NCBI RefSeq assembly: GCF_900091555.1
Contig: NZ_FMCX01000006.1
Location: 217,116 to 281,115, forward strand
Direction: 5' to 3'
Length of the DNA: 64,000 nt
From: Micromonospora mirobrigensis
Lineage (GTDB): Bacteria > Actinomycetota > Actinomycetes > Mycobacteriales > Micromonosporaceae
A program made the translations under genes and the position numbers. Below are positions 7,926 through 32,372 of the stretch, one piece after another. Position 1 is the first letter of the stretch. Each line of letters starts with the position of its first letter. The notes beneath the pieces were generated by a model. The model searched no databases. It saw only the letters and a list, made by a program, of their open reading frames with translations, and was not told the origin of the DNA.

Positions 7926-9335
7926 ATGGTACGCGTGACGACTCCAGAGGCGACCGGTTACCGGATCGAACGCGACTCGATGGGCGAGGTGGAGGTGCCC
8001 GCCGAGGCGCTGTGGCGGGCCCAGACGCAGCGGGCGGTGCAGAACTTTCCGATCTCCGGGCGGGGCATCGAACCGGCCCAGATCAAGGCGCTGGCCCAGA
8101 TCAAGGGGGCGGCGGCGCAGGTCAACGGCGAGCTGGGAGTGATTGGCGCGGACGTGGCCGCCGCGATCGCCGCCGCCGCCGCGCACGTGGCCGACGGCGG
8201 GTACGACGACCAGTTCCCGATCGACGTGTTCCAGACCGGCTCGGGCACCTCGTCCAACATGAACACCAACGAGGTGATCGCCACCCTGGCCGGCCGGGAG
8301 CTGGGCCGCGACGTGCACCCGAACGACGACGTGAACGCCTCGCAGTCCAGCAACGACGTCTTCCCGTCCTCGATCCACCTGGCCGCCACCCAGTTCGTGG
8401 TGGAGGACCTGATCCCGTCGCTGAAGCACCTGGCCGGGGCGCTGGAGGAGAAGGCCGCCGAGTTCGAGACGGTGGTGAAGGCGGGGCGTACCCACCTGAT
8501 GGACGCCACCCCGGTCACCCTGGGCCAGGAGTTCGGCGGGTACGCCGCCCAGGTCCGCTACGGCGTGCAGCGGCTGGAGTCGGCGCTGCCCCGGCTGGCC
8601 GAGCTGCCGCTGGGTGGCACCGCCGTGGGCACCGGCATCAACACCCCGCTCGGCTTCGCCGGGAAGGTGATCGAGCGGCTGCGGGAGTCCACCGGACTGC
8701 CGCTCACCGAGGCCCGCAACCACTTCGAGGCGCAGGGCGCCCGGGACGCGCTGGTGGAGACGTCCGGGCAGCTCCGCACCATCGCGGTCGGCCTCTACAA
8801 GGTGGCCAACGACATCCGCTGGATGGGCTCCGGCCCCCGCGCCGGCCTGCGGGAGCTGCGCATCCCCGACCTCCAGCCCGGCTCGTCGATCATGCCGGGG
8901 AAGGTGAACCCGGTGGTCGCCGAGGCGATGCGGCAGGTCTGCGCCCAGGTGATCGGCAACGACGCGGCGGTCGCCTTCGCCGGCACCCAGGGCGACTTCG
9001 AGCTGAACGTCATGCTGCCGGTGATGGGACGCAACCTGCTGGAGTCGATCAAGCTGCTGGCGGCGTCGAGCCGGCTCTTCGCCGACCGCCTGGTGGTCGG
9101 CCTGGTCGCGGACGCCGAGGTCTGCCTGGCGTACGCCGAGGGCTCGCCGTCGATCGTCACGCCGCTCAACCGCCACCTCGGGTACGACGAGGCTGCCTCG
9201 ATCGCCAAGGAGGCGCTGGCGAAGCAGGTGTCGATCCGTGAGGTGGTCATCTCCCGGGGGCACGTCGACTCGGGCAAGCTGACCGAGACCCAGCTCGACG
9301 AGGCCCTCGACCTCCTCCGGATGACCCACCCCTGA
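7926..9335 (+). CDS. fumC: Class II fumarate hydratase
   Basis: 469-residue homotetrameric, oxygen-stable fumarase of the TCA cycle, in the aspartase/fumarase superfamily. Visible hallmarks are [17 protein letters not shown], the substrate-binding [12 protein letters not shown], the catalytic-His segment [18 protein letters not shown] and the mobile loop signature [11 protein letters not shown] near residues 319-329. ATG at 7926 has GGAGG 9 nt upstream; GTG at 7935 is an alternative. It starts 35 bp after the SARP gene. Having FumC beside an iron-sulfur fumarase suggests switching with iron or oxidative stress, as known in E. coli; the switch here is inference. Confidence 0.96.
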
Positions 9336-9389
9336 CCCGTTTCCGGGGCGACGGGTGGCCTCTTCGCCGGAACGCTTGGCCTCCGGGTT

Positions 9390-9557
9390 TGGGAGGCGAT
9401 CCTCAGCGAGGCGTCGAACGACCAGTGCGTCGAGGTGGCGGACCTGGCCGGTGTGGTCGGGGTGCGGGACAGCAAGGACCCGGACGGACCCGTCCTGGCC
9501 TTCGAGGCGTACTCGTGGCGGCTCTTCGTGGCGGCGGTGCCGAGCGGGCGCGGTTAA
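9390..9557 (+). pseudogene. 5'-truncated DUF397 gene remnant
   Basis: In the frame ending with TAA at 9555-9557 the DNA encodes a clear DUF397 core: CVEVADLAGVVGVRDSKD, then PDGPVLAFEAYSWRLFVAA. Intact DUF397 proteins are about 60-75 residues and start with a short Trp-Arg-Lys-Ser-Ser stretch. Here only VWEAILSEASNDQ precedes the core, and the frame back to the fumC stop (9333-9335) contains no ATG, GTG or TTG. DUF397 genes normally follow an XRE-type regulator, which is missing. The simplest reading is a decayed fragment; translational read-through from fumC is less likely. Confidence 0.7.
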
Positions 9558-9597
9558 CCGGTCGCCCGGCGGGCGCCGGCCCGGCATCATCGACGGC

Positions 9598-10170
9598 GTG
9601 ACCGGGGACGTGCTGCTGGAGACCGCGCGGCTGCGGCTGCGCCGGTTCACCGCCGACGACGTGGACCTGCTGGTCGACCTGGACGGCGACCCGGAGGTGA
9701 TGGCCTTCCTCACCGGTGGGGCGCCGACCCCGGCTGCCGTGGTCCGGGACGAGCAGGTGCCGCGGATCGTCGCCGGCTACGACCGCCATCCGGGTCTCGG
9801 GCGGTGGGCCGCGCTCGACCGGGCGAGCGGGGAGTTTCTGGGCTGGTTCGCGCTGGACCCGTCCGACGACGGTACGGAGGCGGAGCTGGGCTACCGGCTG
9901 CGGCGGCCGGCGTGGGGCCGGGGCCTGGCCACCGAGGGGTCGCGGGCGCTGGTGCGGCACGCCTTCTCCTCGGCCGGGGTGCGGCGGGTGTGGGCGCAGA
10001 CGATGGCGGTCAACGCGCGGTCCCGTTCGGTCCTGGCGAAGGCGGGCCTGCGACACGTGCGCACCTTCCACCTGCACTTCGACGACCCGATCCCGGGGAC
10101 CGAGCACGGTGAGGTGGAGTACGAGCTGCTCAGGGGCGACTGGCGGCCTTCCGCGCCCGGTACGCGCTGA
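9598..10170 (+). CDS. GNAT family N-acetyltransferase
   Basis: 190-residue acetyl-CoA-dependent acetyltransferase of the RimJ/RimL-like branch. ETARLRLRRFTADDVD opens the fold, LGYRLRRPAWGRGLATEGS is the acetyl-CoA binding motif A, and NARSRSVLAKAGLRHV is the typical motif B helix. The substrate cannot be told. GTG at 9598 is chosen because the conserved N-terminus begins there; the upstream extension is the unrelated DUF397 region in another frame. Its last 41 bp overlap the convergent CGNR gene. Confidence 0.85.
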   Translation: MTGDVLLETARLRLRRFTADDVDLLVDLDGDPEVMAFLTGGAPTPAAVVRDEQVPRIVAGYDRHPGLGRWAALDRASGEFLGWFALDPSDDGTEAELGYRLRRPAWGRGLATEGSRALVRHAFSSAGVRRVWAQTMAVNARSRSVLAKAGLRHVRTFHLHFDDPIPGTEHGEVEYELLRGDWRPSAPGTR

Positions 10171-29204: not shown

Positions 29205-29792
29205 TCAGGAGCCGGTGACCCGGACCAGCAGCTCCACCACGGCGGCCGTGGCCCCGGCCGAACCGTCCTCGCCGGGGCAGTCGACGTGGCCGGTCGTCCG
29301 CTGCCCGACGGTGAGCCGGTACTCGAACGCGTCGGCGCAGTTGGTCGGGGTGGCGGGGGCGTCGGCCTCGGTGGCCAGCCGGGGGTCGGCGAGCAGTTGC
29401 CGCAACCGGTCGAGATCCGCACCGGCGATCCTCCCGGTATGCCGCGATCCGGCCCCCTCGACGGTCCAGCTGCCGTCCGGTTGCACGGTCACCGTCTCCG
29501 CGCGGCCGGCGAAGCCGCCGGAGCGGGTGAGCACCACCCGCTCGGCGCTCGCCGGGAGGTCACCGGCCGGGGTCGGGGTGCCCGACGCCGGTCCGGTGGT
29601 GGGCGTCGACCCGGTGCCGGACGTCGGCGTGGGCGCGGCGGTGACGGTGGTCGGCGCGGTCGGTGCGGCGCTGCTCGTGGCGGGCGCGGACGGGGACTGC
29701 GCGGCTGGTCCGGCCGGTTCGTTCGCTGAGCAACCGCTCAGAATCATCGCCATCACAGCGATCTTGACAACTGTCCTGGGGGCTGGTGTCAT
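29205..29792 (-). CDS. Secreted lipoprotein with emfourin-like (M4 protease inhibitor) domain
   Basis: 195 residues. A short signal peptide ends in the lipobox LSGC (VVKIAVMAMILSGCSANEP), so the mature protein should be lipid-anchored outside the membrane. A 50-residue Pro/Thr/Ser/Ala linker follows. The C-terminal 110 residues show the two marks of the protealysin-inhibitor emfourin family: VVLTRSGGFAGRAE and DAFEYRLTVG. Two Cys (TNCADAF, HVDCPGE) could form a disulfide. The divergent neighbour encodes an M4 metallopeptidase, the target class of emfourin. ATG at 29792 is chosen over longer starts because it opens the signal peptide. Confidence 0.75.
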   Translation of the reverse strand: MTPAPRTVVKIAVMAMILSGCSANEPAGPAAQSPSAPATSSAAPTAPTTVTAAPTPTSGTGSTPTTGPASGTPTPAGDLPASAERVVLTRSGGFAGRAETVTVQPDGSWTVEGAGSRHTGRIAGADLDRLRQLLADPRLATEADAPATPTNCADAFEYRLTVGQRTTGHVDCPGEDGSAGATAAVVELLVRVTGS

Positions 29793-29966
29793 GCCTCGTC
29801 GGACGTGCGACGCCCCGCTCCGGTTCCCGACAACCTGGGCCGCCTCGTCCGAACGGCCACTGTCGCCGACCAGAAGTGCTCCCCCCTCTTCTCTTTTCGT
29901 CGGTGTATCAGTATATCTACATGCGTGACTACCCCCGTCACACATTCCCCCCCTTCAGGAGGGCAC

Positions 29967-32372
29967 GTGAAAAGACCCCTCGCCGCCGTCAGTGCAGCGC
30001 TGCTCACCAGTGGCGTGCTGACCTGCGTCGCCACCCCCGCGGCGCAAGCGGCAACCCCGAGCGCCCCCGCTCCCGCCTCGTCCGCCGCAGCACGCGCTGA
30101 GAGCCTCCTCGCCAGCAACCCCGGTGCCGTCCAGGGCGCCAGCGGTGAGGCCTACCAGGCGTACCGGACGAAGGTGGACGCGAACGGTGCGGCGCACACC
30201 CGCTACACCCGGACCTACCACGGCCTGCGCGTCTACGGCGGTGACTTCGTCATCCACACCGCCCCCAACGGCGCGTACGCCGGCACCTCGGTCGGTCTGT
30301 CCGCCCCGCTGACCCTCGGCACCGCCGCCAAGGTCACCTCGGCCGCCGCCAAGGAGACCGCCCGGAAGACCTTCAAGGGCTCGCTCGCCGCCGTGGGCGC
30401 CCCGGAGCTCTTCGTCGACGCCAGCTCGGGCAAGGGCCGGCTGGCCTGGGAGACCGTCGCCACGGGCTTCAAGGCCGACAAGCAGACCCCGTCGAAGCTG
30501 CACGTCATCACCGACGCCGTGACCGGCAGGGTGATCGGCTCGTACGACGAGATCGAGTCGGTCGCCGGCACCGGCAACAGCGTCTACTCCGGCACGGTCA
30601 GCGTGGACACCACGCTGTCGGGCAGCACCTACTCGATGGTGGACCCGTCGCACGGCAACGGCCGCACCTGCGACATGAACAACACCACCTCGGGCACCTG
30701 CACCACGTTCACCGACGCCGACAACACCTGGGGCACCGGTGCCGCCTCCAACCGGCAGTCCGCCGCGGTGGACGCGCACTTCGGCGCCGCGAAGACGTTC
30801 GACTACTTCAAGAACGTGCACGGCCGCAACGGCATCTTCGGCACCGGCGCCGGCGTTCCCAGCCGGGTGCACTACGGCAGCGCCTACGTCAACGCCTTCT
30901 GGGACGGCTCCCAGATGACCTACGGCGACGGCTCCGGCAACGCCAAGCCGCTGGTGTCGCTGGACGTGGCCGGCCACGAGATGAGCCACGGCGTCACCGA
31001 GAACGTGGTCTCCGGCGGCCTCACCTACTCCGGTGAGTCCGGTGGTCTCAACGAGGCGACCAGCGACATCTTCGGCACCTCCGTCGAGTTCTACGCCGCC
31101 GCCCCGGGTGACCCGGGCGACTACAAGATCGGCGAAGAGATCGACATCAACGGCAACGGCTCGCCGCTGCGCTACATGTACAACCCGTCGCTGGACGGCT
31201 CGTCCGACTCGTGCTGGACCACCAGCACGAAGAACAAGGACGTGCACTACTCGTCCGGTCCGGCCAACCACTTCTTCTTCAACCTCTCCGAGGGCACCGG
31301 CGCCACCTCCTGGGGCACCTCCCCGGTCTGCGGCTCCGCCCCGGCGGTGACCGGCATCGGCCGCGCCAAGGCCGAGAAGATCTGGTTCCGGGCGCTCGAC
31401 GTGTACTTCACCTCCAACACGTCGTACGTCAACAACACCACCCCGTCGAACACCGCCCGGGCGTACTCCCTGCGGGCGGCGACCGACCTCTACGGCAACT
31501 GCTCCGCCGAGTACAAGGCCGTCCAGGCCGCGTGGACCGCCGTCGCGGTCTCCGGCTCCGACGCGCCCTGCTCGTCGACCGGTAACGACTTCTCCGTCTC
31601 GCTCTCCCCGACCTCCGGCTCGGTGACCGCGGGCGGTTCCGTCTCCACCACCGTGTCGACCGCGACCACCTCGGGCACCGCGCAGACCGTGTCGCTCTCC
31701 GCGTCCGGCCTGCCGAGCGGCGCGACCGCGTCGTTCAGCCCCTCCTCGGTGACCTCGGGCGGCTCGTCCACCCTCACCATCAGCACCTCGTCGGCCACCC
31801 CGACCGGCACCTACTCGGTGACCGTCACCGGCACCGGCGCCGTGACCCACACGGCCGGCTACACGCTGACCGTCAACGGCACCGGCGGCGGCTGCACCGG
31901 CGCCGGCCAGAAGATCGGCAACCCGGGCTTCGAGTCCGGCAGCACGGCGTGGACGGCCAGCTCCGGCGTCATCGGCCAGCCCGGCGCCAGCCAGCCGGCC
32001 CGCTCCGGCACCTGGAACGCCTGGATGGACGGGTACGGCAGCAGCCACACCGACACCCTGTCCCAGTCGGTGAGCCTGCCGGCCGGCTGCACCTCGTACA
32101 ACTTCTCCTTCTACCTGCACATCGACACGGCCGAGACGACCACCAGCACCGCGTACGACACGGTCAGGGTGCAGGTGCTCAACTCGTCCGGCACGGTGCT
32201 GGCGACGCTGGGCACGTACTCCAACCTGAACAAGGCCGCCGGGTACACCCTGCGCTCGTTCTCGCTGGCCTCGTACGCCGGCCAGACCGTCACCCTGAAG
32301 TTCACCGCCACCGAGGACGCCTCGCTCCAGACCTCCTTCGTGGTCGACGACACCGCGGTCAACGTCTCCTGA
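29967..32372 (+). CDS. Secreted M4 (thermolysin-like) metallopeptidase with C-terminal beta-domains
   Basis: 801 residues. Sec signal peptide (LAAVSAALLTSGVLTCVA to AQAA), then an FTP/PepSY propeptide to about residue 215, then the zinc protease domain: VAGHEMSHGVTENV (zinc His 337 and 341, catalytic Glu 338), GGLNEATSDIFG (third ligand near 362) and GPANHFFFN (catalytic His near 435). After about 540 comes a Ser/Thr-rich Ig-like domain, then a jelly-roll-like domain (NPGFESGSTAWTAS) likely for substrate or surface binding. GTG start with AGGAGGG 3 nt upstream. An AT-rich promoter region with GTGAC-N7-GTCAC (29925-29941) precedes it. Divergent from the emfourin-like lipoprotein. Confidence 0.93.
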   Translation: MKRPLAAVSAALLTSGVLTCVATPAAQAATPSAPAPASSAAARAESLLASNPGAVQGASGEAYQAYRTKVDANGAAHTRYTRTYHGLRVYGGDFVIHTAPNGAYAGTSVGLSAPLTLGTAAKVTSAAAKETARKTFKGSLAAVGAPELFVDASSGKGRLAWETVATGFKADKQTPSKLHVITDAVTGRVIGSYDEIESVAGTGNSVYSGTVSVDTTLSGSTYSMVDPSHGNGRTCDMNNTTSGTCTTFTDADNTWGTGAASNRQSAAVDAHFGAAKTFDYFKNVHGRNGIFGTGAGVPSRVHYGSAYVNAFWDGSQMTYGDGSGNAKPLVSLDVAGHEMSHGVTENVVSGGLTYSGESGGLNEATSDIFGTSVEFYAAAPGDPGDYKIGEEIDINGNGSPLRYMYNPSLDGSSDSCWTTSTKNKDVHYSSGPANHFFFNLSEGTGATSWGTSPVCGSAPAVTGIGRAKAEKIWFRALDVYFTSNTSYVNNTTPSNTARAYSLRAATDLYGNCSAEYKAVQAAWTAVAVSGSDAPCSSTGNDFSVSLSPTSGSVTAGGSVSTTVSTATTSGTAQTVSLSASGLPSGATASFSPSSVTSGGSSTLTISTSSATPTGTYSVTVTGTGAVTHTAGYTLTVNGTGGGCTGAGQKIGNPGFESGSTAWTASSGVIGQPGASQPARSGTWNAWMDGYGSSHTDTLSQSVSLPAGCTSYNFSFYLHIDTAETTTSTAYDTVRVQVLNSSGTVLATLGTYSNLNKAAGYTLRSFSLASYAGQTVTLKFTATEDASLQTSFVVDDTAVNVS

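Follow-up and report, generated by a model that had tools for sequence, protein, structure and literature searches.

In the genome of Micromonospora mirobrigensis, within a stretch of 64,000 nucleotides of contig NZ_FMCX01000006.1 (the window), a gene for a lipoprotein with a C-terminal emfourin domain and the gene for a thermolysin-type M4 metalloprotease are divergently aligned, with 174 bp between them (Table). We consider it moderately probable that the lipoprotein acts at the cell surface as an emfourin-type inhibitor of M4 proteases, those of the cell itself and probably those of neighbours. The protein belongs to the emfourin family and carries a lipobox, and its gene is preceded by a conserved promoter-like site, is paired with M4 genes in many genomes and is retained after loss of the protease gene. 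The first observation on this DNA, a divergent M4 protease together with a lipid-anchored emfourin-like protein, is confirmed.

In the Pfam search, the lipoprotein matched Emfourin (PF20242) at E 4.2e-7 with 30.7 bits against a cut-off of 27, the sole family over cut-off, while the NCBIfam search gave no family over cut-off. The two sequence marks from which the family had originally been predicted, RSGGFAG and DAFEYRL, are both present. Among the orthologous domains, 67 of the 68 aligned (alignment A1) matched Emfourin at E 0.001, the Pfam cut-off itself being compared for only part of them. By hhalign, the lipoprotein profile was matched over 75 columns to that of short emfourins found in this bacterial family (alignment A2), with a probability of 94.8% and E 5.3e-8; all ten members of A2 adjoin an M4 gene. 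PDB sequence searches with the lipoprotein, with a short emfourin and with the profiles A2 and A1 gave no emfourin match. The GG pair, a W, the D..Y motif, Cys152 and Cys172 are invariant in alignment A1, and over 90 rows a total of 12 domain positions are invariant (G14, G15, G18, G29, W31, G42, L52, L55, C74, D76, Y80 and C94). Exactly two cysteines occur in 68/68 lipoprotein domains of A1 and none in 10/10 short emfourins of A2; Cys152 and Cys172 may form a disulfide.

The AlphaFold2 model of the lipoprotein domain (predicted local distance difference test, pLDDT, 82.0; predicted template modelling score, pTM, 0.74) shows strands (E) and helices (H) in the order E-E-E-E-H-H-E-E-H, and the corresponding model of one short emfourin (pLDDT 79.2, pTM 0.71) has the order E-E-H-E-E-H. 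As judged by comparison of these two secondary-structure strings, with no superposition of the models, both likely have a common core of two strands, helix, two strands and helix, to which the lipoprotein adds a strand pair. In Foldseek, the top match of the short emfourin model was the Serratia emfourin 6zyg (E 3.2e-3, prob 1.00).

The N terminus of the lipoprotein is a signal peptide with LSGC at its end, and a strict lipobox pattern was detected in 89 of the 92 orthologue rows, so the lipobox noted at the outset is conserved, as in a bacterial lipoprotein. A longer open reading frame of this gene runs up to 29945, but the extension is probably a mere upstream open frame, since the conserved promoter-like site lies inside it.

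A survey for emfourin lipoproteins adjacent to M4 genes, suggested together with the original prediction, bore out the pairing. Some lipoprotein match was found in 134 of the 151 Micromonospora genomes, and a match at E 2.9e-16 or better in 94, at 97 places. An M4 orthologue adjoins the lipoprotein gene at 69 of these places, as expected of an emfourin gene, and the two are divergent in 69/69; the catalytic motif was intact, with no stop seen, in all 69 M4-bearing loci checked. The other 28 places are 22 loci with a lone lipoprotein gene, three copies on a contig separate from that of M4, both at contig ends (G313, G131 and G267), and three far paralogues (G304:C218, G250:C1:2525018 and G269:C113). 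With three M4 orthologues at contig starts that open inside the lipoprotein gene, the loci with both genes number 72. The intergenic stretch measured 119-183 bp in 67 loci, and 165-175 bp in 61 of them. Counted by genome, 77 of the 151 held both genes, 17 the lipoprotein only, 13 M4 only and 44 neither (Fisher p 8e-13, without kinship correction; three of the 13 M4-only genomes do hold a contig-cut lipoprotein). Gene maps were drawn with a simple GC-frame caller. In one scan, the named relatives were Micromonospora at 35 of 36 loci and Catenulispora rubra at one.

Outside the genus, an M4 gene stands next door at 8 of the 21 loci examined (L259, L263, L264, L269, L274, L275, L278 and L311), from six genera. 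The M4 proteins of these pairs are 34-77% identical to the window M4; the L278 pair is tandem and the other seven are divergent. The M4s of L259, L278 and L311 keep HExxH, with the downstream motif shorter and altered. Twenty of the outside-genus loci were hand-picked from the better matches and are thus a non-random sample, the surroundings of G198, G087 and G133 being partly known beforehand. With the genus included, genomes with a lipoprotein match numbered 106/200 in the family, 29/200 in the order and 25/394 in the class, the neighbours being looked at for only a minority of the outside-genus matches.

Twenty-two Micromonospora genomes carry the lipoprotein gene without M4 seen at the locus, one copy being broken (G123, locus L164). 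The neighbouring enoyl-CoA hydratase gene is kept in the fetched stretch of 21 of these 22 loci, the remaining one being cut by a contig end; gene maps were drawn for 18 of them, and the G220 copy (L082) is located at the end of its contig. Remnants of M4 were detected at three lone loci, L164 (residues 652-801 at 75% identity), L077 (last 35 residues) and L074 (last 37 nt at 97%), indicating that the M4 gene was once present there and was then lost. At L164, the start of the lipoprotein gene is also gone. The lone rows keep the lipobox in 21/22, the promoter-like site in 20/20 testable cases and all 12 invariant positions in 22/22. On the lipoprotein tree, M4 status requires 7 changes against a shuffled mean of 19.0, and a single group (SH-aLRT 83, not starred) takes in 14 of the 21 lone rows scored. 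Since this group keeps motif and promoter, mostly in M4-free genomes, foreign M4 proteases or another role are indicated. Altogether, the 72 loci with both genes and the 22 genomes with lipoprotein but no M4 seen there stand against a single genome (G302) with M4 and an apparent lipoprotein remnant. This one-sided pattern of loss agrees with a function in inhibition or immunity, and is what a harmful enzyme and its antidote would be expected to show.

Rate measures gave no decision on relaxed selection in the lone copies: the median ratio of non-synonymous to synonymous substitution rates (dN/dS) of the lipoprotein was 0.51 for lone pairs and 0.68 for M4-bearing pairs, while lipoprotein dN relative to neighbour dN was 4.4 in lone against 3.3 in M4-bearing rows (83 rows; four hand-dropped, others without the neighbour gene left out, and the broken L164 included). 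A shift from D-A-F to D-V-M in lone rows was restricted to related rows and was not counted.

The promoter-like site, written as GGAAC-N17-CGTC, stands ahead of the lipoprotein start in every one of the 89 genes tested (67 with M4, 20 lone and 2 at contig edges), all of them orthologues with a lipobox and 60 nt or more of upstream sequence; the sixth base of the site is C in 88. The site starts 34-35 nt before ATG in 82 genes and 49 nt before it in seven, each of which has an in-frame ATG 15 nt upstream of the chosen start. The background of a looser search pattern was 0.0137 per 150 nt. We take GGAAC with CGTC to be a promoter of the extracytoplasmic function (ECF) sigma type, and a literature search on the ECF-type promoter gave nothing on actinobacteria. 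The short distance from site to ATG suggests a leaderless transcript. With the looser pattern, comparable sites closely followed by a start codon were found at 8 of the 22 outside-genus lipoprotein genes examined, among them L278. When the window's own genome was scanned with one mismatch allowed, 17 matches were obtained against 5 in a reversed control. Ten of these matches were inspected and, besides the window site, two sit 5-6 nt before an ATG, both in front of genes with a lipobox by eye; a small ECF regulon of lipoproteins is possible. These two genes, L322:1535-1918 (+) and L324:475-1494 (-) on contig C7, have the site in the form GGAACC-N16-CGTC, and the distance to ATG is counted from the end of the 29-nt pattern.

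On the M4 side, a different element with an inverted repeat was recognized in a search that tolerated up to 8 substitutions, with the distribution between M4-bearing and lone loci given in the Table; it is a possible operator of these proteases. Because distinct elements lie on the two sides, the lipoprotein and M4 genes are likely controlled separately. A variant of the same element is also present upstream of the M4 genes in L173 (L173:2644) and L274 (L274:5749). The neighbouring LysR gene was considered as a regulator and set aside, as it was not seen in the maps of lone loci.

The partner had been described as a classically secreted M4 protease, and a thermolysin-type enzyme with an FTP propeptide, rather than a protealysin, is borne out: in the window M4, the FTP, Peptidase_M4 and Peptidase_M4_C domains exceed the Pfam cut-offs (PepSY is below), HEMSH...NEATSD is intact as in a thermolysin-type M4 peptidase, and a PDB search by sequence placed it closest to neutral protease of bacteria and to thermolysin. 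The N terminus is of export type, as judged by eye. The C-terminal binding domains once attributed to it stood up in part, as a MAM-like domain below its cut-off (Table) and a weak Ig match at E 0.068.

Based on these observations, we propose that the lipoprotein would be exported, lipidated at Cys21 and tethered on the outer face of the membrane via its flexible linker, its domain being stabilised outside by a Cys152-Cys172 disulfide. In this position it would block thermolysin-type M4 proteases that reach the envelope. One target would be the M4 protease from the divergent gene, during secretion and maturation, and M4 proteases of neighbours would probably be another. Expression of the lipoprotein would be driven by a separate promoter of the ECF-sigma type, distinct from that of the protease gene, so that it could rise under envelope stress without the protease. 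As a tentative and more specific version, the protein may be a stress-induced tethered shield against M4 proteases generally, chiefly those of other microbes, encoded by an immunity gene that is kept after loss of the genome's own protease; it would represent a surface-anchored branch of emfourins under an ECF sigma factor.

A number of observations weigh against an inhibitor of M4 proteases. The Emfourin match of the lipoprotein spans profile positions 23-76, or 54 of 91, and the relatives at L259, L264 and L278 score below the Pfam cut-off even though they stand beside M4 genes. The best fold match of the lipoprotein domain model was Mago nashi (Z 9.8, root-mean-square deviation (rmsd) 3.6, 111 residues aligned), and 6zyg was absent among the matches listed; for the short emfourin model the highest Z was also that of Mago nashi (7.0, rmsd 3.6, 94 aligned). 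No M4 stands next door at 13 of the 21 loci outside the genus, of which five have a glpD-like gene at a distance of about 3 kb or less and six have neither a glpD-like gene nor M4, the glpD-like genes being named by eye from likeness to the Pfam-typed one in L073. No M4 (Pfam PF01447) is present anywhere in 17 of the 22 lone-lipoprotein genomes. Some M4 without a strong lipoprotein match is present in 10 of the 151 genomes, the three contig-cut cases being already credited, and at 19 further Micromonospora M4 loci tblastn and a profile search detected no such lipoprotein in the fetched stretch, the profile search being run without a positive control and tblastn having found orthologues in the same database. 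Coevolution of lipoprotein and M4 was also examined and gave only a weak partial r of 0.06-0.15 (66 loci, linked enoyl-CoA hydratase removed), which we do not count as support. Finally, G302 has an intact M4 gene (L185:2390-4765, +; HEMTH...NEATSD, 62-63% identical) between the same flanking neighbours, and a search of its genome gave no lipoprotein match; upstream of M4, an ATG, about a dozen lipoprotein-like codons and a decayed promoter were recognized by eye, an apparent remnant. On this counterexample we dropped the claim that the M4 gene of this locus is always accompanied by the lipoprotein gene; G302 indicates that M4 is bearable without the antidote and that the antidote is not strictly needed. 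G302 is a natural test case for M4 kept without the lipoprotein.

Part of this evidence would suit an emfourin-fold envelope lipoprotein with another job, such as a chaperone or receptor for secreted proteins, placed beside M4 as both are related to secretion. The 13 outside-genus loci, the adjacency of a paralogue in the same genome to glpD, the Mago nashi match of a protein that is no inhibitor, the retention in M4-free genomes and the survival of G302 all agree with such a role. We nevertheless regard it as rather unlikely, given the Pfam and profile match to a family of proven inhibitors and the recurrence of the pairing with distant M4 proteases; moreover, M4 carries its own FTP propeptide, so that a separate chaperone would be less needed. 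Another proposal, that the lipoprotein provides dedicated self-immunity only, protecting the producer from its own divergent M4, with lone copies as relics being lost, comes close to the original prediction of a guard devoted to the protease that the cell itself releases. It accounts for the conserved divergent pairing, for the 72 loci with both genes against one M4 with a lipoprotein remnant, and for the remnants of M4 found next to three of the lone copies, including the broken copy of G123. The guard in this dedicated form is not supported, since lipoprotein and promoter were kept at 20 of 20 testable M4-less loci, mostly in M4-free genomes, while the 19 M4 loci without lipoprotein and G302, which lives with M4 alone, oppose it from the other side. 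The single tree group of 14 lone rows indicates that lone copies have lasted, their lipobox, promoter and invariant positions are maintained, and the rate measures point both ways. Self-immunity as the sole function is thus decidedly improbable. That lipoprotein and protease are neighbours by chance would agree with the lone copies and with the outside-genus loci without M4; it is hardly credible, being already contradicted by conservation, namely the divergent order in 69/69 with near-constant spacing, the pairs in other genera and in Catenulispora, and the genome-level association given above with its lack of kinship correction. An emfourin-family inhibitor of M4 proteases, own and probably foreign, is the reading that we retain.

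Additional emfourin-like and M4 genes were noted. The window's own genome holds one further M4, on contig C9, and a second emfourin, L001:1453-1890 (-) on contig C3 (145 aa, 33.4 bits), in which a signal peptide, but no lipobox, was recognized by eye; no M4 was found beside it within the fetched 3.3 kb. The lipoprotein paralogue L073:5263-5775 (+), on C16 near 307.4 kb and about 60 kb away, lies between glpD and an FAD-linked oxidase gene, and shows 37% identity over 97 aa with no Pfam match at E 0.01. A second, weaker lipoprotein match is present in many Micromonospora genomes, often at a similar distance. In other genera of the family, emfourin-like lipoprotein genes form adjacent pairs at L261, L262 and L277, where the fetched stretch holds no M4. 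Two of the 13 outside-genus loci lacking an M4 next door have a protealysin-like M4 gene farther off, at 1.2 kb and together with its short emfourin in L267, and at about 3.3 kb in L271; these two loci are of one genus, and a DUF3455 gene lies between the emfourin-like lipoprotein and the protealysin-like M4. Beside the lipoprotein/M4 pair of L259, the gene 8052-9629 (+) encodes a trypsin-like domain protein, the C-terminal part of which matches the window M4 at 59% identity over 190 residues.

Table. Features of the divergent lipoprotein and M4 protease genes (positions in the window)
Feature	Position	Strand	Basis or remark
Lipoprotein gene, C-terminal emfourin domain	29205..29792	-	ATG start, 195 aa; open reading frame, codon check and Pfam PF20242
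Emfourin domain, residues 79-195 (117 aa)	29208..29558	-	Alignment A1 (68 rows; 90 rows), AlphaFold2 model
Linker rich in Pro/Ala/Thr/Ser, residues 22-78	29559..29729	-	Sequence; disorder presumed from composition
Lipobox LSGC, residues 18-21, Cys21	29730..29741	-	Sequence; lipidation predicted
Shared intergenic stretch between the divergent genes	29793..29966		Spacing measured in 67 loci
Promoter-like site GGAACC-N16-CGTC	29802..29827	-	Ends 9 nt before ATG; presumably ECF-sigma type
M4-side element TATATCTACATGCGTGACTACCCCCGTCACA, inverted repeat GTGAC/GTCAC	29912..29942	+	61/67 M4-bearing loci, 0/21 lone loci
Ribosome-binding site AGGAGGG of the M4 gene	29957..29963	+	Sequence; in consensus of 67 loci
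M4 thermolysin-type metalloprotease precursor	29967..32372	+	GTG start, 801 aa; Pfam FTP, M4 and M4_C; PDB sequence matches
FTP propeptide motif	30153..30275	+	Pfam PF07504, E 3.1e-13
M4 catalytic domain, HEMSH at 30975-30989	30567..31001	+	Pfam PF01447, E 1.7e-50
M4 alpha-helical domain	31017..31550	+	Pfam PF02868, E 1.8e-42
C-terminal MAM-like domain, weak	32019..32366	+	InhA-like MAM, 22.1 bits, below cut-off 26.9

The known role of emfourin is to inhibit a protease inside the cell; here the same domain is predicted to be lipid-anchored opposite a protease of the secreted type. About seven natural changes of protease presence leave the inhibitor-like gene in 22 genomes, one copy being broken, and this makes it testable whether a lone copy protects against a foreign M4 protease.

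The founding paper of the emfourin family reportedly dates from 2021. The emfourin of Serratia proteamaculans (M4in, 6zyg) is, like the window lipoprotein, a member of PF20242 with its gene beside that of an M4 protease, and GG and D..Y are invariant among the lipoproteins as well as among the short emfourins (A2) that occur in this bacterial family. In contrast to Serratia emfourin, the lipoprotein has a predicted lipid anchor, a linker, two invariant cysteines, its own promoter-like site and a divergent partner of the thermolysin type; its model has four predicted N-terminal strands, that of the short emfourin two. Serratia emfourin shares one operon with the intracellular protealysin, and emfourin-like inhibitors have been proposed as immunity proteins (PMC9505478). 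The window pair is no such operon, since M4 has an FTP propeptide and lies on the opposite strand. The anatomical difference from Serratia was correctly predicted, but the same bacterial family also has Serratia-like neighbours, in which M4 stands beside an emfourin as it does here, at 11 loci (L003-L009, L011, L012, L016 and L017). Their small M4 is about 30-33% identical to the window M4 and lies on the same strand just upstream where mapped and where M4 was called; in two of these M4s tested, the protealysin propeptide was not over cut-off. Ten of the neighbouring emfourins (A2) have no Cys and no signal peptide by eye, unlike the window lipoprotein.

Mago nashi of the exon junction complex resembles the lipoprotein model in fold, but it is a eukaryotic protein of unrelated function with no Pfam sequence match at E 10. 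A fold common to this RNA-complex protein of eukaryotes and to protease inhibitors of bacteria would be worth a test; sequence gave no support for it. The Streptomyces subtilisin inhibitor family (SSI, sermetstatin) also consists of actinobacterial protease inhibitors and shows a weak fold likeness (4hx3, Z 4.2, rmsd 4.1, 87 residues), with a Z in the range of common arrangements and no sequence match to the lipoprotein. The literature searched, in which subscription papers were mostly outside coverage, gave no lipoprotein form of emfourin with two cysteines and divergent from a secreted-type protease. The emfourin family itself is known, and, as judged from sequence, its lipid-anchored two-cysteine branch opposite secreted-type proteases seems to be new.

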